This document shows, in pieces, positions 6,011-21,715 of a DNA stretch of 30,094 bases; position 1 is the stretch's first letter, and every line of letters starts with the position of its first letter. The notes under the pieces were generated by a model. That model had not been told where the DNA came from and ran no database searches. It worked only from the letters and a program-made list of their open reading frames with translations. The position numbers were made by a program, and so were the translations under genes. Source of the stretch: a virus; IMG/VR virus record IMGVR_UViG_3300003876_000006, positions 1 through 30,094 of that record. One strand, given 5' to 3'.

Positions 6011-6856
6011 ATGAAATATTTTTTAGACACCGAATTTTTAGAAGGGATCCAAAAACGTGGACTCTTCAATATTAAGAAACCAAAGCCTACAATAGATTTG
6101 ATTAGTATAGGAATTGTCTGTGAGGATGGCAGAGAATACTACGCCATCTCAAAAGGTTTTAATTTGAAAGAGGCTTGGAATAGGCACGACTTAAAAATAA
6201 ACAAACATTATCCCATGGGCCCTAAATACGTAAAGGATTTTTGGATTAGGCAAAACGTACTCTACCCTATATTCAAGGAACTCTATAATAAATCAAGGGA
6301 GGACAAAGACTTTCTTAGAGATAGATTCTTCACTTATGGCCAAGGATTTAAGTATTCAACTTTAAAAGTGCTCATAGACTGGTATGGCATACCTAATAGT
6401 CAAATAGCATCAGAGATCATTAAGTTTACTAATGACGATGTTCCTGTAAAAACTATCGGAACAACAACTGTACAACTTTCAGAAGAATCCCAGTTAGACC
6501 TTAAAAGAGGTTACACTACACCTGAATTTTATGGTTATTATGCTGATTATGACTGGGTAGTTTTTTGTTGGTTATTTGGTAAAATGATGGATTTACCAAA
6601 AGGTTTTCCGATGTACTGTAGAGACTTAAAACAAATGTTAGATCTCAAGTGGGCCTTAGATGATGAGATGGTAGAATATTTAAAAGCAATACAGGAAACT
6701 AATCAACAATGGCCAACGTCAGAAAATATAGAGGATATTTTTAAAGTAGAGGATATTAAAAAACACCCTGACTACCCTAAACAGGATAATGAACACAATG
6801 CCTTGGAGGATGCTAAATGGAATCTTAGATTATATAATTTCTTAAACGGATTGTAA
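6011..6856 (+). CDS. DEDDh 3'-5' exoribonuclease, Rv2179c-like
   Basis: A 281-aa protein with the exonuclease fold of the DnaQ/RNase T superfamily. It has FLDTEF with Asp6 and Glu8 at the N-terminus, the strand DLISIGIVCEDGREYYAIS, YADYDWVVF with Asp181, and HNALEDAKWN with His262 and Asp267 (HxxxxD). This residue set is that of the Rv2179c-like exoribonucleases common in phages. The long insert at residues ~90-165 is larger than the minimal fold. It starts 2 nt after the recombinase stop, so it is operonic with it. Probable role: RNA or oligonucleotide degradation during infection. A proofreading role for a separate polymerase is the alternative. Confidence 0.8.
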   Translation: MKYFLDTEFLEGIQKRGLFNIKKPKPTIDLISIGIVCEDGREYYAISKGFNLKEAWNRHDLKINKHYPMGPKYVKDFWIRQNVLYPIFKELYNKSREDKDFLRDRFFTYGQGFKYSTLKVLIDWYGIPNSQIASEIIKFTNDDVPVKTIGTTTVQLSEESQLDLKRGYTTPEFYGYYADYDWVVFCWLFGKMMDLPKGFPMYCRDLKQMLDLKWALDDEMVEYLKAIQETNQQWPTSENIEDIFKVEDIKKHPDYPKQDNEHNALEDAKWNLRLYNFLNGL

Positions 6857-6857
6857 C

Positions 6858-7157
6858 ATGAGTACATTAATCGCAACTAAAGAAGGGTTCCTCAAAATGT
6901 TAGGGGAGCAAATTGATGACAATGCAATAGTAGCATTTACACAAGACATACACGGGCAACTTGGAATAACAGATAAAGGAAGAGTGAAGTCTGTACCTTT
7001 TGGATTTAGTTCCGAAGTATTCAAACGTAAGGAAACTGTGGGAGATATTATGAAAAGGGATGTGATGGCCATAGGTATTATTATCATGCCACCTGAACAT
7101 GCCTCGGAAGTAGCTAAAGAACTATATAAGACAAAAGGACCAGAGGACAATGGCTAA
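6858..7157 (+). CDS. Hypothetical protein (99 aa)
   Basis: No family is recognised. The product is a soluble, mixed alpha/beta protein with a hydrophobic strand AIGIIIMPPEHASEV followed by a helix near the C-terminus. It starts 1 nt after the exoribonuclease stop and overlaps the next gene by 8 nt, so it is translated within the same unit. A reverse-strand open frame over the same bases lacks an upstream signal and is not favoured. Confidence 0.6.
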   Translation: MSTLIATKEGFLKMLGEQIDDNAIVAFTQDIHGQLGITDKGRVKSVPFGFSSEVFKRKETVGDIMKRDVMAIGIIIMPPEHASEVAKELYKTKGPEDNG

Positions 7158-7539
7158 GAAATACTTATACACCAACTCTGTAGCAGTACCATTGTACAGA
7201 GGATATATCATTATCATCTTTACAAATAGTAAAAAGAAGTTGAAGAAGTATGCACCTGAAATGCATCTTAGAGAGCTATATGCATATAGTTGCAGGATAG
7301 AACGAGACGGAGCCCTTGGACATGCGATGGTTCTGAATTTCGATAGTAAAGTCAGAAAGATGAACCCCGGATGTGTGGCACATGAAATAGTCCATTGTGT
7401 AAATTCTATATTAGACTATGCAGGAGTGTTACCCTCTTTTGAGAATGATGAACCAACTGCCTATTTGACAGATTGGGTGACTGACCAGGTGTATAAGTTT
7501 ATGGATGATTGCGACTTGAAAACTAGTTTTAATGGATAA
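7150..7539 (+). CDS. HExxH metallopeptidase-like phage protein
   Basis: A 129-aa protein with a zincin-type motif AHEIVHCVN (HEIVH, residues 78-82) and a possible third ligand at Glu101 within NDEPTAYLTDWV, about 19 residues downstream. Small proteins of this layout (HExxH, then a D/E-AYL-W helix) are common in phages of Bacteroidetes and have no proven substrate. The N-terminal half supplies beta strands (YRGYIIIIFTN). It overlaps its neighbours on both sides by 8 nt, indicating translational coupling. Zinc binding is well supported; peptidase activity is inference. Confidence 0.65.
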   Translation: MAKKYLYTNSVAVPLYRGYIIIIFTNSKKKLKKYAPEMHLRELYAYSCRIERDGALGHAMVLNFDSKVRKMNPGCVAHEIVHCVNSILDYAGVLPSFENDEPTAYLTDWVTDQVYKFMDDCDLKTSFNG

Positions 7540-7840
7540 AGAATATAAAGTATTCCCGGAAATAGAGGTCAATCAAAAGGGGCACATTACAGAATTGTCG
7601 ACCTTAATACCAATTAAGAGGAATGGAGTTTTTTATGAGGTGATTATGAAAGATATTTCAACAGGAGCCTCTTATGAGAATAGGTTTAAGTTATTAGCGT
7701 ATTGTCACATATTATTTTGGGAAGTTTCAAAAATTCACAATACTCCAAGCGAAAATCAAGGTTATGAAGAAGTCAAGGTTCCTGACTATATAAAACAAAG
7801 AATAATAGATGACCCTATTTTAGGAATCCACAGAATATGA
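7532..7840 (+). CDS. Hypothetical protein (102 aa)
   Basis: Not recognised. The sequence is beta-rich in its first half, with a helix around YCHILFWEVSKIH and a charged C-terminus. It overlaps the HExxH gene by 8 nt upstream and the next gene by 4 nt (ATGA) downstream, so it is part of a tightly packed accessory operon. No signal peptide or membrane segment is visible. Confidence 0.6.
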   Translation: MDKEYKVFPEIEVNQKGHITELSTLIPIKRNGVFYEVIMKDISTGASYENRFKLLAYCHILFWEVSKIHNTPSENQGYEEVKVPDYIKQRIIDDPILGIHRI

Positions 7841-8103
7841 GTGAAGGATTAGTTAGCCTGTATGTAGATGTACCACTCAATTACAGAGAGGTAAATGTAG
7901 ACGATTTTATTGTAACCATTGGGATTAAAGGGCACACTAATAGTGTCTACCACGTTGCTGAATCCAAGAGTAAATTAAGGGGAAAGATAACCCGTTACTA
8001 TGTAAAATGTTATAGGTCCGACCTAATGACTTGTTGTGCTCGAGATAAGGGAACTCAAAATGTAATAGACATTCAATGGTATAAGAGAGAAAAGAAAAAA
8101 TAA
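7837..8103 (+). CDS. Hypothetical protein (88 aa)
   Basis: Not recognised. It is a small basic protein with beta-prone stretches (DDFIVTIGIKG, KITRYYVKCYRSDL) and three cysteines, two adjacent (TCCARD). The C-terminus is strongly basic (WYKREKKK), which could aid nucleic-acid binding. It is the last gene of the run that begins with the recombinase; the next gene is separated by a structured leader. Confidence 0.58.
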   Translation: MSEGLVSLYVDVPLNYREVNVDDFIVTIGIKGHTNSVYHVAESKSKLRGKITRYYVKCYRSDLMTCCARDKGTQNVIDIQWYKREKKK

Positions 8104-8109
8104 TTTTCA

Positions 8110-8117
8110 TATATTCG
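8110..8117 (+). promoter_or_regulatory. Possible -7 box (TATATTCG)
   Basis: TATATTCG differs from TAnnTTTG at one position and lies just before the RNA pseudoknot. If used, the transcript would begin near 8121-8125, placing the first stem at its very 5' end. No TTG is found at the right upstream distance, so support is weak. Confidence 0.25.
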
Positions 8118-8121
8118 TAGT

Positions 8122-8163
8122 GAATCCGAAACCGCCACGGGTTCAAACATAGATGTTGGCGGT
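8122..8163 (+). promoter_or_regulatory. Predicted H-type RNA pseudoknot in a 5' leader
   Basis: Stem 1 pairs GAATCCG (8122-8128) with CGGGTTC (8138-8144): seven pairs, one of them U-G. Stem 2 pairs ACCGCCA (8131-8137), which lies in the loop of stem 1, with TGGCGGT (8157-8163): seven Watson-Crick pairs. Loop 1 is 2 nt, the junction is 0 nt and loop 3 is 12 nt, which is workable H-type geometry (short loop over the deep groove, long loop over the shallow groove). The structure ends 16 nt before the ATG at 8180, where it could control ribosome access. It matches no riboswitch consensus that I recognise. Confidence 0.6.
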
Positions 8164-8179
8164 CTATAAATTACATATT

Positions 8180-8932
8180 ATGAAAATCTTCAAAGCAGTT
8201 ACGTTAACGGAAGTTAGCGAGGTTGGAGCAAATATCGGAGAAACGATTGTTTGCCCAACAAAAGAAAATCCAAACGACTATCAAGTTTACGTTCATCGAG
8301 TAAAGGGAATTTACACACCTTGCGGTAAATTCACGGATCTTAAAACAGCCATTAAGTACGCTGAAAGGTTAGAGAATCCTTCGATGATCAAACAGGGTTA
8401 TCAAATTATTGAATTAAGTCACTCACAAAAATTGATTATTTACTATGATCAAATGAATGAGGAAGTGTTGGACTACATTCATTGTAGTGAGCAGATATCT
8501 GATGTCTCAATTCAATTAGAGGAGAGTGGTTTAAGTATTCGTTTCATAATTCCAAAGGAAACGGAAATACAGCAAATGAATCGATTGAACCACCGAGATG
8601 AAATGGTCGGGTTTGGAAATTACCTTCTTTCGAGTGAAAGGCGAGAACGATTCGCATCACACCCAGTTTTAGGAGATAGAAACTTAGAGCAGAGATTGAG
8701 TGAAGTTTGCCATTCAGATTTTGATAATTACCAAGCATGGCTCAAACTAAAAGATTCCGATACCCCATTAGAGTCGGAACCGATAGAGATAGAACCACAC
8801 CTAGATATCCAAACCTTAACGTATTTTGAAAAGATGTGCCAAGAGTCCTGTTCACCGGAGGTATATCACTTATTCAAGGATAAGGTTGTTGGAGAATTGA
8901 AAATGAATCGAAAGGGTTTAAGAAGAGACTAG
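8180..8932 (+). CDS. Hypothetical protein (250 aa) behind a structured leader
   Basis: The start at 8180 (MKIFKAVTLTEV) is chosen because the earlier ATG at 8153 lies inside the pseudoknot, and the A/T-rich lead-in ending in TATT resembles other starts in this genome. No family is recognised. The N-terminal ~100 residues look like a compact alpha/beta domain; the rest is acidic and helical with scattered His and Cys residues. No membrane segment or signal peptide is present. It stands alone between the accessory operon and the virion-type gene at 9030. Confidence 0.68.
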   Translation: MKIFKAVTLTEVSEVGANIGETIVCPTKENPNDYQVYVHRVKGIYTPCGKFTDLKTAIKYAERLENPSMIKQGYQIIELSHSQKLIIYYDQMNEEVLDYIHCSEQISDVSIQLEESGLSIRFIIPKETEIQQMNRLNHRDEMVGFGNYLLSSERRERFASHPVLGDRNLEQRLSEVCHSDFDNYQAWLKLKDSDTPLESEPIEIEPHLDIQTLTYFEKMCQESCSPEVYHLFKDKVVGELKMNRKGLRRD

Positions 8933-8960
8933 TACTTAGGGTAGGCCCCCTGTAAAAAAA

Positions 8961-8977
8961 GGAGGGTCAACCCCTTC
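8961..8977 (-). terminator. Terminator-like hairpin on the minus strand
   Basis: GGAGGG (8961-8966) pairs with CCCTTC (8972-8977), one pair being a wobble, around a 5-nt loop. On the minus strand the stem is followed by seven T residues (8960-8954), the classic form of an intrinsic terminator. On the plus strand there is no T-run. No leftward gene lies to its right, so it would act only on antisense transcripts. Confidence 0.35.
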
Positions 8978-8992
8978 AAATTTGACATTCAC

Positions 8993-9000
8993 TATCTTTG
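8993..9000 (+). promoter_or_regulatory. -7 box (TATCTTTG) before the virion-like gene
   Basis: TATCTTTG is a full match to TAnnTTTG, 30 nt before the ATG at 9030. A TTTG at 8981 is too close to be a -33 element. The leader after it is A-rich (ATTAAAAATAACAATATT), like other well-expressed genes here. Confidence 0.45.
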
Positions 9001-9029
9001 GATTAGTATAAATTAAAAATAACAATATT

Positions 9030-9905
9030 ATGTCAAAAGGAGTACCGGCTTTAACAAATCAGCCAAGAATTCAAATAGTATGTGCAGCAGGACAAAGTTT
9101 TTCGCAAAGAGCGTTAAAGTCTGTCCTGAATGAAATTTCTCAAATGCAACAGAGAGACACTCCTGCAGGAACTTACACAAACCAAAGATGTAACGGAGAT
9201 TCGCCTTACGCGATTGCTATATGGAACATCATAAAGACAGCAGGATCTACATCTGCTTTAGGAACCGTCACAGCAGCTACCGCAATAGCAGGAAATACTG
9301 TGACTGCAAATGGATTAGTATATACTGCAGTAGCAGGAGCTAAATCAAATAGCACAGAATTTTCAATAGATGGAACCAATGATGAAGTTGCATCAGATCT
9401 TGCAGCTTCTATAACTGCAGACCAAAGAGTTGGAACGTTAGGAGATTTATCAGCATCATCTGCAGCAGCAGTTGTTACAATAACTTCTACACTTGAGGGT
9501 ACAGCAGGAGATGCTGTGACTTTAGCATCCTCGGGAGCTACTTTAGCAGTATCAGGAGCTACTTTAGCAGGAGGAGTTGACGCTGCAGATTACACTATCA
9601 CATTTGTATCTGAAACTGGTGTAACAGGATCAAGCGCACTAAACCGTCCGGCATTATCTCAAAGAAGATTGCTTGACATAGCATTTGTATTAAACGGATT
9701 CAATTTCACAGTTAGATCTGCCATGGCAGCAATTAACTATATTGAGAAGTTTGAGGACAAAGTAGCGTCTAGTGGAGATGTAAATGCATTAGATGGCACT
9801 TATGCAAATCAAAAAGTAGGAGGATTTACTCCATACGAAGAGTACAGATGGGATATCGTGAAAGCGGACAATGTCTATACTTTGACACCTACTGCAACCT
9901 CATAA
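9030..9905 (+). CDS. Putative virion structural protein with an inserted Ig-like module
   Basis: A 291-aa, Ala/Thr/Gly-rich protein. Residues ~74-184 form a module (IAGNTVTANGLVYTAVAGA, SDLAASITAD, AAVVTITSTLEGTAGD, SGATLAVSGATLAGG) of the immunoglobulin-like type often inserted in phage tail and head proteins. The flanks resemble each other: GTYTNQRCNGDSPYAIAIWN (residues 48-67) and GTYANQKVGGFTPYEEYRWD near 256-275 share GTYxNQxxxGxxPY and the Trp. Helices precede each copy. The gene has its own promoter box and intrinsic terminator, as expected for an abundant virion component. A head decoration or tail-tube protein is possible; the exact role is not determined. Confidence 0.65.
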   Translation: MSKGVPALTNQPRIQIVCAAGQSFSQRALKSVLNEISQMQQRDTPAGTYTNQRCNGDSPYAIAIWNIIKTAGSTSALGTVTAATAIAGNTVTANGLVYTAVAGAKSNSTEFSIDGTNDEVASDLAASITADQRVGTLGDLSASSAAAVVTITSTLEGTAGDAVTLASSGATLAVSGATLAGGVDAADYTITFVSETGVTGSSALNRPALSQRRLLDIAFVLNGFNFTVRSAMAAINYIEKFEDKVASSGDVNALDGTYANQKVGGFTPYEEYRWDIVKADNVYTLTPTATS

Positions 9906-9998: not shown

Positions 9999-10601
9999 AT
10001 GGGGAGAGGAGGAAAGTCTTATGATCATTTAACTTTAGAGGATAAGATAAATCTAAGGAGAGATTCAGACGATAGAATCTTCATCCCAGTAGTTAAAGGT
10101 AAAGTATATATTCAAAGACCCGAATTGAAAAAGCAAAAGGAGTTCATTAAAAAAGAGGGAGAGACCTTCAACTTTTTACAGTATGTTGGAATTGTCTACG
10201 ATTGGGCTATGGCCAATTATAAGATATCAAGACCTCAAGTTGATTTAGTATTATACCTACACCCTCTTGGAATATTCACAAGAGAGGAAGCTTATAAAAC
10301 GCTAGAGCTCTGGCCATGTTCAAAATACATGGTCCTTGAGAAGTTGATCAACAAAGGTATGATCTATACAGTACAATATTCTAAAGATAGTAGGAATAGG
10401 AGACAGCCGGTATATAGTTTAACTAACAAGGCCACAATGATGGTCAACATATTTTATAAAAAAGTAACAGGCGAAAGGAAGTTTGCGACGAGCCACGTCT
10501 CACTAGGTCACATAAATAAAAACGCTTCAAAAGACTTTAAGTACGACGATATAATAGGAAAGTTCAATCAAATGGTAAAAGATAAGAATGATGAAACTTA
10601 A
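9999..10601 (+). CDS. Winged-helix (MarR-like) DNA-binding protein
   Basis: A 200-aa protein starting MGRGGKSYDHL; the upstream ATG at 9945 is rejected because it would read through the terminator hairpin. Residues ~60-160 have the order of a MarR-type winged helix: helices around VDLVLYLHPLG, TREEAYKTLE and SKYMVLEKLINKGMI, then a two-stranded wing containing RRQPVYSLTNKA. The final ~35 residues are charged. The gene overlaps the next, a predicted secreted protein, by 14 nt, so the two are expressed together. It could regulate late genes or host surface genes; the fold is likely, the target unknown. Confidence 0.65.
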   Translation: MGRGGKSYDHLTLEDKINLRRDSDDRIFIPVVKGKVYIQRPELKKQKEFIKKEGETFNFLQYVGIVYDWAMANYKISRPQVDLVLYLHPLGIFTREEAYKTLELWPCSKYMVLEKLINKGMIYTVQYSKDSRNRRQPVYSLTNKATMMVNIFYKKVTGERKFATSHVSLGHINKNASKDFKYDDIIGKFNQMVKDKNDET

Positions 10602-11148
10602 ACTAATAATACTGATAATACTTCTTCAACAACCCTTTAATATTACAGAGCACATATCTGATATGCAAGGAGGTTGGTCCATAGGAAATGGTTGTGATGA
10701 GCACTTCACGGATTGGGCGACTGTTTCAAGTGTAGAGACAAATGGACATCCCCTAGAAGTAATGAATGGATGGCTAGACATACAAGGCCAAATTCAGGAG
10801 AACGGAGTAAATCAAGACGTTGTTCAAATGATTGTAGATGGAAGGGTAATTTTGAGATGCACAGAGTCTATGATATCAGTAAATACAACTCTATCTACAA
10901 TAGAGGAAGACTTCCAAGTTGCTAAAGTATTTCCAAATCCTTTTGGATCTCAAATAACAATTAAGGGAAACGGAATCAAAAGGTTGATAATTTATGATAT
11001 CAATGGCAAAAAGATTATTGAAAGACCCACAACATTTAATACAACTGTATTACAATTGGGATACCTACAATCAGGATTGTATTTTCTTCAAGTACACTTT
11101 GATTTAAAAGTTCCTGTAGTTGTCAGGATCATTAAAAATAGTGCCTGA
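10588..11148 (+). CDS. Secreted protein with a type IX secretion C-terminal sorting domain
   Basis: A 186-aa protein in three parts. Residues 1-~16 are a hydrophobic signal peptide (KLKLIILIILLQQ). Residues ~22-108 form a small mature domain with two cysteines (36 and 91) that could pair. Residues ~113-184 are a T9SS type-A sorting domain: KVFPNPFGSQITI, RLIIYDINGKKI, LGYLQSGLYFLQV, VRIIKN, in the usual order (PNP, YDxxGK, L-x-SGxYF-x-V, K near the end). T9SS carries such proteins across the outer membrane of Bacteroidetes and attaches or releases them, removing this domain. The gene is translationally coupled to a winged-helix gene and precedes the fibre genes. A surface role in the infected cell, such as receptor masking, is inference. 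Confidence 0.82.
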   Translation: MMKLKLIILIILLQQPFNITEHISDMQGGWSIGNGCDEHFTDWATVSSVETNGHPLEVMNGWLDIQGQIQENGVNQDVVQMIVDGRVILRCTESMISVNTTLSTIEEDFQVAKVFPNPFGSQITIKGNGIKRLIIYDINGKKIIERPTTFNTTVLQLGYLQSGLYFLQVHFDLKVPVVVRIIKNSA

Positions 11149-12363: not shown

Positions 12364-15300
12364 ATGGCAAGAATACTTAGACAAGACATTTACCCCTTTA
12401 AAAACCCGATAAGTTTAAATGACTATGTTATTGGAACGGACTCTCAAAACAGTAACAGGACTAAAAATTTTAGGATTGGAGATTTTGTAGGCTTTATAGA
12501 AACTGTTGGTTTACCTAATGGTATTGATAAAGGGGAGATAGTTTGGACTCAAGACCTAAGTTTTTTACATACACAATTAGAAGGAGTTATAGATGATAAC
12601 ACCTATACGATACCTTCGGGAGCCATAACAGGACCAAACGCCGACCCCACTAATTCAAGAACAGATATTATAGTAGCTGATGCTGCAGGAAACGTTTCGG
12701 TTGTACAAGGTATTGCTGCAGCCAATCCTATTGAGCCTATCGTATTAGACCCTTTAACTACTGTAAAAATTTCAGCCTTTAGCGTAGCAGCTCTTGCCAC
12801 ACAACCAACTGGAATAGTTAAAACTTTAATGTACGATGAAGATGCCGGTACAGGAGGAGGAGAATTTAATGTTGTTGCAACAGGATCAGGAATAAACTTA
12901 GCTAATACTATTAATCCAAACACAGGAGCAGTATCAATATCATTAAATGGTATAGTTAATACCGGAGCTTATGTCTCTATGCTTCCTTCGGTAGTTCAAA
13001 CAATTCAATCGTTTACTAACATACATCTATACCTCAATAATTCTATAGAGTGGACTAACACATCTCGTATAAAGGCTGCTTTCTTTAGTAGTGGTATTCA
13101 AGTCAGTAGTTTTGTTTCTATTAGAAACGGATGCTACGGTTTGGTAAGCGATATATTGAACCAGTACCAAAGTATTATATTACCTAAAGATGACTTTCAG
13201 TTTAGAGGAAACTCTTGGGATGAAATACAATTCCAATTTGAAAACCTTCCTGCAGGAGTAATATATTTAGATACTTTTAATATTCTAGGAGGTATTGAAA
13301 ACCCTCCTAGATTCGGCTCTATAAAAGCCCTATCGGATATGCCTGACTCTTACGTAGGTAAGGCAGGATATGTAGCTCAAATAAATGATAGTGAAACTGG
13401 TTGGAATTTTGTACCATTTACAGGAGGAGGCTCTGTTTTAGTTAATGATGAAGATATTAACTTTAACCTTTTAAATGAGTTGCAGTTTAAAGACAGGGAT
13501 AATGTTAACCAACTGGGGTATAAAATAATAAGAGATGACTTTGATTGGCAAAACATCCCGGCTTCTTATGGGGACTCTATATGGGAGCTTAGGTATGAAT
13601 ATGATTTAGGAGGAAACGATGTGACATTTCCTACTAATGTTACACTAGATTTCAAAGGAGGTAAAATATCTAACTACGGACTAATAACTTTTGATCAAAC
13701 CCTTATTAAATTTGATGGAATCTATCCTATTTTTGATGCAAGTGGAATATTTACAGGAGGAGGTAAGACAGTTGGAGATTTAATTACACCTATACACTTT
13801 GGAGCTCAAATCATGGAGGGTGTAACTACAGTAGGAGCCTTTGACTGCACGAATGCTTTTAATAAGACAGTCCAATTTGTAGGATCTCAAAATGTTAATT
13901 TCATAGGTAATGGTAGACCCTCTTACACCTCACCTAGAAAAAATCCACAAACAAAGGTTGAAGTTCCCGGTGGTACATATTTTTTAACAGATTCTATAAT
14001 ATTCAGGCAAGGACAAGTATGGGAGGGAAATAAGTCCAATACTTTATTACTATTTGAGCCGGAGTTAAAATTAAAAACCGGAACAATAAACGACTACAGA
14101 AGATTTAAAAGTTTTGAAAACTTTAGCGATTTTGCTTTAGAGAATACATACGCGGATAGAGACGCTATGTTGGCAGACCAGGTAAATCAAACAAACCAGT
14201 TAAGGCAATTCGTTATAGATGCTAGAACAGCTCAAGAAATTTTAGATGGAGACCCTGTTTACGATTCAAACTTCTTATTGAACTTGAATAAGGATTTATT
14301 CATAGTCGATGGAGATATTGATACCGATTTCAACTATGGTGCTAACGTCATGGAAAATGTTAGGGTAAAAGGATTCACTCTAACGGGCGATGTAAGATAC
14401 GATGGAACAGGAAATGCAGGAAATGGTATCTACACGAATAATGCATCTCAACTTAAATTTGAAGATGTTTATATCAGTAAGTTTACAAGAGGAGTAAGTG
14501 TAAATATAGGAGATGTAGCAAGGTCAGCTTACTACAATAAATTTAAGAATGTACAAATACAATACGTAAAACAGGCCCTTATGATAGGAGAAGGTACTGC
14601 TGTTACAGATTTTGAGGATTGTATTTTTGTTTCAAGAGCTGAAACTATAGTGCGTTATGATCACTTAATTGAAGCATATAATAATACTACATTCAGAGAT
14701 TGCTCTTTTGAAGGAGGAACTCCGACAGAAGCTTGCATATACGCACCAATAGGTAAAATATGCATAATAGGGGGTCGTGATGAAAGTAATAGCTTATTGA
14801 AGTTCGGAGGTAGAGGAGTAACCGGAGGAGTTACGGCAATACTACCTAATGGACCTACAGGGCAAGTCCCATCGAGATTTGGAGAAATTACAGACGTAGA
14901 TCAAGCTCCTTTAGCTGTAGATATGAGCCTTGATCAAAACGTATTAACACAAAATATCAATTTCGGACAAGGTGTTGCTCAAGAGGTAGAAATGTTGAGA
15001 AACCAAAATTGGAAATTTGGAATGGAAGGATGGTTGGAAGATGGTACAGATGGTTATTATGAACTTATAAATGACAGAGCTGAACTCATGGGTTCACCTA
15101 ATGGAGTAAAAGTAACTAAAACATTAGGAGGATCTTACGCTTTAACACAACCCGTTAAGTTAAACTCATCTAAAACTTATATTTCAGTTTGGGTAAAGGA
15201 AAGCGCTGATGCCATATTAAGGTTACAATTGGGGGTGCTAAAGGCTTCGGATGACCCAGTAACAAACTATTTTAAAGAGTTTGTACCTATACTAAAGAAT

Positions 15301-18245: not shown

Positions 18246-20309
18246 ATGGCACTAATAGAGAATCAAAGTATATACCCATTAAAACCCAACCCAGTAAGTA
18301 CTGATTTTGTAACCGGTACTGACTCGCAAGACAGTAATAGGACAGTAAGTTTTTCTATCTCTGCCTTGCAAGCTGCAGTAGGAGCAACTATATATACATT
18401 AAGTAATGTAGTACCTGACGCGCGTACTGTCACTCATAATAATACTATGAGTTTTACAGGACCTATGGCAGCATCGGAATTTTTAGCCCAACACACAAAT
18501 GGCCATGTATTCAGAGTCAATCAAAATGGGATATTTGGAAGCAGCTTTGGAGTAGGAATAATTACTCAAAACGCTTCGGCGATATTACAAGCTGACTCCA
18601 CAACAAAGGGCTTCCTACCTCCAAGAATGAGCACTTTACAGAGAAATGCTATTGTATTTCCTGCAACTGGCCTGACTATATTTAATACCTCATCAGGTTT
18701 TATAGAAACTTATGATGGGTCTACATGGACCACTAATTCAAACATCAATATATACAATGCTAATGGAAGCATAACAGAAGATCGAGTAGTCTCAATTGAA
18801 TCAAACAACAAATTAGTATTAGATTCGTACAATACAGATTCTTCAAACTATACTAACAGATCTACCTTAACTATGGTATCTAATAGCGTACTACTAGAGT
18901 CGGTAGTAGGAGATGGCTTAGGAGGAGTGGTCTCTATAACATCTTTTTCTATAACTCAAGCAGGATCAGGTATATTTACTGATGGAACTAACTCTAAAGG
19001 AATTGAATATGCTGCAGATTACTCTACAAACTTCACAACGAGATCCCTTGTTGATAAGGGTTATGTAGATAGTGTCTTAGGATCTACTACAATTTATACC
19101 GGCGACGGAGTTATTAATAATGTCAATAGAGTTGTAACCTTAAATGACACGGATGATAGTGGCAATGAACTTTTAATACAAACTACAGGAACGACCTTGT
19201 CTACAGGTATAGCGATTAGATATAATCAAACTAGAGTCTACGCCTCTAATGGAGCAAATATTACACAGTTAAATATAAATCAATTTAATGCAGTTTTTAC
19301 TGATGCTATAAACTCTATAGGTATTCAGTATGCTGTAGATTATTCAGCAAACTTTACGGCAAGGTCCTTAGTTGATAAAGACTATGTAGACTCTGCAGTA
19401 GGATCTACTTTTTATACATCTGATGGAACAATAGACGCTACTTCAAGAGTAGTGACTGGGAACAACAATAGTAATGTAACCTTCTTTTTAAATGACCTTA
19501 CATCCCCTAACTTCAATAACAGAGGATTATTAAGGATAGGCCCTGCTACATCTAGTATTGGAATTGAGCAAGGGAATGGAGCCGGAGTCGTTACAAATCA
19601 AATGTTAATAAACGCAACTACAGCAGCATTTACTGTAACGGATTCTATAAACAATAAAGGAATGGTCTATGCTGCAGACTACTCTGCAAACTTTACATTA
19701 AGATCTCTAGTAGACAAGGAGTATGTAGATGGGATAGCAGGGGCTACCATTTATGCTGCAGATGGCATTCTAACACAAAAACGTACTGTAACAGGGCAAG
19801 GAGGGGATGCTATTTCTTTTATACTTTACAATTTAACTTCTGCAGATTACACTTCTGCAGGGCTTATGAGTGCAACAAGCTCATCAGTAAAATTAGCACA
19901 TCAAGTTGGCGACGGAGCAGGAAATTTAGACACAGAAGTATCTATTTCCACACTCCCTACAGGAGTTCTAATAGAAGATACTACAAATAATAAGGGAGCT
20001 GAATATGCTGCAGATTACTCTGCAAACTTTATAGATAGATCACTAATCGATAAAGGTTATGGAGATCTTCTTGTAGCACAGAATATGGTAATGGTAAGAC
20101 AGGCATCAGACTTTGGCGTTATTGATTCTTCAAAACTATATTGTGTAGATGGTATTGTGGATATGTCATCTACAACTATAGAAGTGCCATCAGGAGGTTT
20201 AAATATTTGCGGATTAGATATAGAAATTTCAAAACTTATAAGTTCAGATAACAATTACGACATGTTCACTAGGGAGTGGAAATGTATTTATAAATTCTTT
20301 AAGCATTGA
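18246..20309 (+). CDS. Second tail fibre, N-terminal part (frameshifted)
   Basis: A 687-aa open frame. Residues ~1-40 (IYPLKPNPVSTDFVTGTDSQ, then DSNRTVSF) match the adaptor of the spike at 12364. STTKGFLPPRM near residue 120 is a typical fibre-shaft phrase. Four repeats follow at roughly 330-nt spacing, each containing YAADYS-NF--RSLVDK-YVD and then a beta-rich stretch (the fourth ends RSLIDKGYGD). The frame ends in FKH at a TGA, but the adjacent frame continues the same kind of sequence. Replacing GGG at 20272-20274 by GG would fuse them as MFTRSGNVFINS. The gene is probably one fibre of about 1000 residues, broken by an indel or read by frameshifting. Confidence 0.7.
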   Translation: MALIENQSIYPLKPNPVSTDFVTGTDSQDSNRTVSFSISALQAAVGATIYTLSNVVPDARTVTHNNTMSFTGPMAASEFLAQHTNGHVFRVNQNGIFGSSFGVGIITQNASAILQADSTTKGFLPPRMSTLQRNAIVFPATGLTIFNTSSGFIETYDGSTWTTNSNINIYNANGSITEDRVVSIESNNKLVLDSYNTDSSNYTNRSTLTMVSNSVLLESVVGDGLGGVVSITSFSITQAGSGIFTDGTNSKGIEYAADYSTNFTTRSLVDKGYVDSVLGSTTIYTGDGVINNVNRVVTLNDTDDSGNELLIQTTGTTLSTGIAIRYNQTRVYASNGANITQLNINQFNAVFTDAINSIGIQYAVDYSANFTARSLVDKDYVDSAVGSTFYTSDGTIDATSRVVTGNNNSNVTFFLNDLTSPNFNNRGLLRIGPATSSIGIEQGNGAGVVTNQMLINATTAAFTVTDSINNKGMVYAADYSANFTLRSLVDKEYVDGIAGATIYAADGILTQKRTVTGQGGDAISFILYNLTSADYTSAGLMSATSSSVKLAHQVGDGAGNLDTEVSISTLPTGVLIEDTTNNKGAEYAADYSANFIDRSLIDKGYGDLLVAQNMVMVRQASDFGVIDSSKLYCVDGIVDMSSTTIEVPSGGLNICGLDIEISKLISSDNNYDMFTREWKCIYKFFKH
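18992..20074 (+). repeat. Four fibre repeats with YAADYS...RSLVDK signature
   Basis: The coding sequence for YAADYS-NF--RSLVDK-YVD recurs near 19007, 19329, 19668 and 20003, giving periods of about 322, 339 and 335 nt. The DNA core (TATGCTGCAGATTACTC and close variants) is conserved even between units with quite different intervening sequence. This suggests duplication of a fibre segment and possible recombination between units. Confidence 0.7.
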
Positions 20310-21662: not shown

Positions 21663-21715
21663 AATCAAATCAAATCAAATCAAATCAAATCAAATCAAAT
21701 CAAATCAAATCAAAT
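21662..21715 (+). repeat. (AAATC)10 pentanucleotide repeat in a 5' leader
   Basis: Ten perfect copies of AAATC (21662-21711) are followed by a partial copy AAAT, whose last two bases begin the start codon at 21714. There is no conventional ribosome site between the promoter box and the ATG. Copy-number change would alter leader length but not reading frame. A shorter form of the same motif (AAATCAAAATCAAA) precedes the ATG at 21275. Confidence 0.93.

Follow-up and report, generated by a model that had tools for sequence, protein, structure and literature searches.

The window, that is the whole stretch of 30,094 nucleotides of viral DNA analyzed here (IMG/VR record IMGVR_UViG_3300003876_000006), belongs, as judged by its terminase, to a phage related to Pervagoviridae (Callevirus). 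The terminase shares 61% identity with its counterpart in Cellulophaga phage phi38:1 (Pervagoviridae, Callevirus) and some 43% with those of Flavobacterium Elemovirus phages. The terminase matches provided the comparison set, which consists of phi38:1, Calle_1, Elemovirus, Panino and 13 IMG/VR records. Six genes between 5259 and 8103 abut or overlap (spacings +2, +1, -8, -8 and -4) and are followed by a leader of 76 nt, the sole gap in this gene chain. The chain starts with a serine recombinase (5247/5259-6008) and an RNase H-like protein (6011-6856), and its last member before the leader is an 88-aa ORF, which ends at 8103 with the stop codon 8101-8103. Because the stops and starts of these upstream genes overlap or abut, they are probably translationally coupled. 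Behind the leader lies an ORF of 250 aa, and 3' of this ORF a gap of 97 nt with a stable hairpin (8939-8973, -20.1 kcal/mol) and a promoter-like site separates it from the orthologue of phi38:1 gp077. Only one small ORF stands between the recombinase and the gp077 orthologue in phi38:1 and Calle_1, so the stretch 6011-8932, including the leader, is extra relative to both phages.

Some further properties of the window and its relatives were recorded. Within 8939-9009, TTGACA-16-TAGTAT comes after the hairpin, and together they could plausibly mark a boundary and a promoter ahead of the structural genes. The orthologue of the phi38:1 structural protein gp077 (9030-9905) contains an extra middle domain of about 110 aa (residues ~74-187), which matches phrog_28344 and is missing from phi38:1, Calle_1 and two IMG/VR homologues. 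The ORF 10588-11148 (186 aa) carries a C-terminal sorting domain of type IX secretion (Pfam Por_Secre_tail, E 4e-9, above the cut-off), a surprising feature for a protein encoded by a phage. At about 60% identity, some 40 N-terminal residues (encoded at 12364-12480 and 18246-18360) are common to the two large tail-like proteins; this stretch is also present in the tail proteins of phi38:1 and is perhaps a common attachment module. The annotation of Calle_1 includes a tmRNA gene at 43002-43361 besides a large tRNA array.

The features of the leader and the following gene are, with coordinates of the window:

8104-8179, plus strand: intercistronic leader of 76 nt, defined by the gene spacing
8104-8111, plus strand: 5' arm of a possible stem, UUUUCAUA, pairing with 8179-8186 (weak evidence)
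8121-8163, plus strand: candidate H-type RNA pseudoknot, from sequence, geometric scan, energy model and shuffles
8121-8128, plus strand: 5' strand of stem S1, UGAAUCCG, pairing with 8138-8145
8129-8130, plus strand: loop L1, AA, which would cross the deep groove of S2
8131-8137, plus strand: 5' strand of stem S2, ACCGCCA, pairing with 8157-8163
8138-8145, plus strand: 3' strand of S1, CGGGUUCA, adjoining S2 (L2 = 0), so that coaxial stacking is possible
8146-8156, plus strand: loop L3, AACAUAGAUGU, which would cross the shallow groove of S1
8157-8163, plus strand: 3' strand of S2, UGGCGGU, from the sequence
8179-8186, plus strand: 3' arm of the possible stem, UAUGAAAA, which includes the AUG 8180-8182
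8180-8932, plus strand: ORF of 250 aa, with no detectable homologue and with the codon usage of the other genes of the phage

The initial annotation had placed two stems at 8122-8163 with loops of 2, 0 and 12 nt, and the sequence proved this to be correct, with 8121-8163 as the best span. The core of S1 is formed by GAATCCG (8122-8128) and CGGGTTC (8138-8144) with 8125.8141 as the single U.G pair, and an extra pair 8121-8145 lengthens this stem to 8 bp. S2 consists of seven perfect Watson-Crick pairs. L1 comprises 2 nt, L2 is absent and L3 comprises 12 nt, or 11 nt with the eighth pair of S1. The two stems interlock in the order S1 5', S2 5', S1 3', S2 3', as in an H-type pseudoknot, and on the plus strand the loops have suitable lengths for crossing the grooves (L1 with 2 nt over 7 bp, L3 with 11-12 nt over 7-8 bp). 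The minus strand fails this groove test, as the loop order becomes 12/0/2 and the shallow groove of a 7-bp stem would have to be spanned by a loop of only 2 nt. In addition, the U.G pair of S1 turns into an A.C mismatch on this strand, and the top minus-strand pseudoknot of the leader in the energy model is a different one with -11.7 kcal/mol. The geometry is that of a classical H-type pseudoknot which is sterically sensible on the plus strand only.

Pseudoknot-aware folding with shuffled controls, the check suggested together with the initial annotation, was performed with a simple energy model consisting of nearest-neighbour stacks and a fixed penalty of 9.6 kcal/mol. The pseudoknot reached -19.8 kcal/mol. 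Nested folding, by comparison, gave at best -13.5 kcal/mol for the leader of 76 nt and -11.4 kcal/mol for the 43-nt segment alone. None of 2000 shuffled leaders attained -19.8 kcal/mol (best shuffle -13.6), and an equal pseudoknot energy was found in none of 160 shuffled windows. The segment 8121-8163 is also the pseudoknot with the best energy on both strands of the window, and no site of equal energy was found on either strand of 482 kb of related phage DNA. By plain base-pair score in a geometric scan it is the top H-type match of the window, and this score was equalled in 3 of 200 shuffled windows. Several sites in 789 kb of more distant, partly GC-rich phage DNA match or exceed the plain score, which indicates that such a geometry by itself is not rare genome-wide. 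The pseudoknot had been chosen after the whole window had been looked over. The original view that both stems would rarely fall in this order by chance was borne out by the energies of the leader and window shuffles, with the 3 in 200 of the plain score beside them. Taken together, the pseudoknot is a genuine sequence feature and a statistically well-supported candidate. Independently of this locus, the scan also detected a very strong H-type match with stems of 8 and 9 bp on the minus strand of two phage contigs taken in as RNase H relatives (L203, 3431-3482; L204, 3426-3477).

The pseudoknot is separated by 17 nt from the upstream stop and by 16 nt from ATG 8180. This ATG, with A at -3 and -12, is the supported start of the 250-aa ORF; the in-frame ATG 8153 is located inside L3 right after the in-frame TAG 8150-8152 and has no A at these two positions. 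The description of the pseudoknot as lying directly upstream of the gene is to be refined accordingly, with the supported start located 16 nt past the knot. In Flavobacterium johnsoniae it is not Shine-Dalgarno pairing on which initiation depends, but the structure of the start codon region together with A at -3, -6, -12 and -13 (PMC6847099). Nested folding predicted that AUG 8180 is almost completely paired with the first 8 nt past the upstream stop; its predicted accessibility of 0.01 was the lowest among 21 starts of the window that were compared. Since the AUG was equally inaccessible in 32 of 600 shuffled leaders (about 5%), the predicted second stem covering AUG 8180 is only suggestive. 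The leader could also contain a promoter, whose -7-like element would be a poor TATATTCG at 8110, and RNA made from such an internal promoter might lack the 5' arm of the AUG stem. At another start codon of the window, that of ORF 21714, tandem ATCAA repeats (21694-21713) are located immediately upstream.

The ORF 8180-8932 is probably real, because its codon usage resembles that of the other genes. The encoded protein is acidic with a pI of 5.3. No family match was obtained with the profiles of PHROGs, Pfam and NCBIfam, comparison with PDB sequences yielded weak matches and no homologue, and the PADLOC models did not match. A single-sequence AlphaFold model was of low confidence (mean pLDDT 44), and a Foldseek search with this model gave a best E of 8e-3; neither the model nor its matches lend themselves to interpretation. 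No homologue was found in phages, plasmids, IMG/VR and GTDB genome contigs, the contig scans reaching close relatives only, and a relative was detectable in none of the 13 related IMG/VR virus records.

DNA similarity searches likewise revealed no relatives of the leader in the collections searched, and a geometric scan of the DNA of the terminase-related phages found no equivalent knot. The window has a sister contig whose terminase is identical; the match between the two begins only at about 12.0 kb of the window and continues from there, so that the knot lies outside the matched part. The 129-aa neighbour gene has distant relatives in several phages. The surroundings of RNase H relatives (80 loci) were scanned as well, and no comparably strong knot was present at the corresponding place. 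DNA patterns with S2 fixed gave chance-like matches only, in which S1 was never longer than 6 bp; patterns with S1 fixed gave no good second stem and unrelated surroundings. In the collections searched, the leader and the ORF are orphans in sequence. In the T4 relative RB49 no gene 32 knot is evident (PMC535899), so missing conservation among related phages is compatible with function.

The leader was compared with known RNA classes. None of the Rfam covariance models scored above its gathering score, and the permissive matches were at chance level, the best riboswitch being Purine with 17.6 bits (cut-off 37) and E 3.9; the earlier statement that the sequence fits no known riboswitch class agrees with this result. 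ARAGORN found no tRNA remnant. A programmed frameshift knot, for which a slippery site 5-9 nt upstream and inside an ORF continuing in another frame would be expected, was rejected because the upstream ORF has already ended at 8103, leaving 17 nt to the knot, and the downstream frame has TAG 8150-8152 ahead of ATG 8153. An intrinsic terminator, defined as a GC-rich hairpin followed by a T run, was rejected as well; a T run is absent, and neither strand of 8121-8163 has a terminator-like site.

Most likely, the knot acts in cis on the 8180 gene, either controlling its translation or insulating it. We tentatively favor, at somewhat short of even chances, the more specific reading that the leader is a cis-acting RNA element which uncouples the last gene of the cluster from its neighbours and sets its translation. 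This reading is based on the position of the knot at the sole gap of the coupled genes, 17 nt past a stop and 16 nt before a start, and from it we infer folding in the cell, an effect on translation and the direction of this effect. The knot would fold just past the ribosome terminating at 8101-8103 and would keep it from continuing into the 8180 gene. Its end, 16 nt before the AUG, would coincide with the edge of the footprint of an initiating 30S subunit, and initiation at 8180 would become independent and adjustable. The weaker stem 8104-8111/8179-8186 would hide the AUG until an upstream ribosome or another factor opens it.

That the pairing potential of the leader is simply functionless is unlikely, although several observations are in line with it: no conservation was demonstrable, similar plain base-pair scores occur several times in the 789 kb of other phage DNA, and the site was picked in a survey of the whole window. 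Against chance stand the energy, which was reached by none of the shuffled windows or leaders and had no equal in the 482 kb of related phage DNA, and the location of the knot in the cluster's only long gap. The same location, a strong compact structure exactly where the coupled cluster meets its terminal gene, would also suit an element of messenger stability that blocks exonucleases at the gap and gives different half-lives on either side, and the second stable hairpin after the 8180 gene (8939-8973) would fit to this. We regard such a role as quite improbable.

In an autogenous translational operator the 250-aa protein would bind to the knot and repress its own synthesis, as described for T4 gp32. 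The upstream position and the AU-rich CUAUAAAUUACAUAUU that links the knot to the AUG are reminiscent of the gene 32 leader, in which the pseudoknot nucleates gp32 binding (PMC535899). An SSB as the downstream gene would be expected for this type of operator, but PHROGs, Pfam, NCBIfam and PDB sequences gave no match to an SSB or an RNA-binding family, though the protein might be an unrecognised SSB. It is also acidic, a property that is by itself compatible with RNA binding. At 16 nt, the spacer is far shorter than the less structured part of the T4 operator (>40 nt) and holds only one UAAA unit. The initial annotation had considered a phage-specific autoregulatory element likely; the identity of the downstream protein lends no support to autoregulation, and we consider an operator of this kind improbable. 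Riboswitch aptamers are conserved and recurrent, but no further copy of the leader was present in the collections searched, the best riboswitch hit in Rfam stayed far below its gathering score, and the downstream gene has no metabolic match; a small-molecule riboswitch of a new class is very improbable, even though preQ1-I and SAM-II use compact H-type knots of similar size (the preQ1 family is reviewed in PMC11625349). The knot is also close in size and shape to CptI, an H-type pseudoknot of 45 nt whose L1 is 1 nt long and which is encoded upstream of its toxin gene (PMC4627078). If the knot were the RNA antitoxin in a type III toxin-antitoxin system whose toxin is the 250-aa ORF, tandem repeats and a terminator ahead of the toxin gene would be expected. 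There is a single copy without tandem repeats, no terminator-like site lies between knot and ORF, and the ORF matched neither the ToxN/CptN/TenpN families nor any other model in Pfam or PADLOC. An antitoxin is hardly credible.

For the uncoupling element that we tentatively favor, a knot at the lone break of a coupled cluster would give the phage a simple means of adjusting the output of a single gene separately from the genes around it. The pseudoknot itself is of a known kind, its structure is well supported, and a role in translation is plausible. It would be a long shot to regard it as the representative of a new class of pseudoknot regulators of Flavobacteriia phages with a knot just past the stop codon. 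In such a class the knot would be a gate separating coupled from independent translation, among hosts of a phylum that does without Shine-Dalgarno pairing; Bacteroidota ribosomes initiate without this pairing, tuned by the structure near the start codon (PMC6847099).

Among the known systems, the preQ1-I and SAM-II riboswitches share with the leader a compact H-type knot, but here Rfam match, metabolic gene and recurrence elsewhere are absent and the knot ends ahead of the initiation region. The CptI/ToxI antitoxins are similar in having an H-type knot of about 36-45 nt upstream of an ORF, and CptI also in its very short L1 (1 nt compared with 2 nt here); they differ by the single copy found here, by the absence of a terminator before the ORF and by an ORF that is unrelated to known toxins. 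In layout, the nearest known analogue is the gene 32 operator of T4 and RB69. Both leaders are phage mRNA leaders in an intercistronic gap, with an H-type knot upstream of the start codon and an A/U-rich stretch between knot and start. In contrast to this operator, the knot described here is located 16 nt and not >40 nt before the AUG, the protein has no similarity to SSBs, and the leader contains no repeated UUAAA elements.
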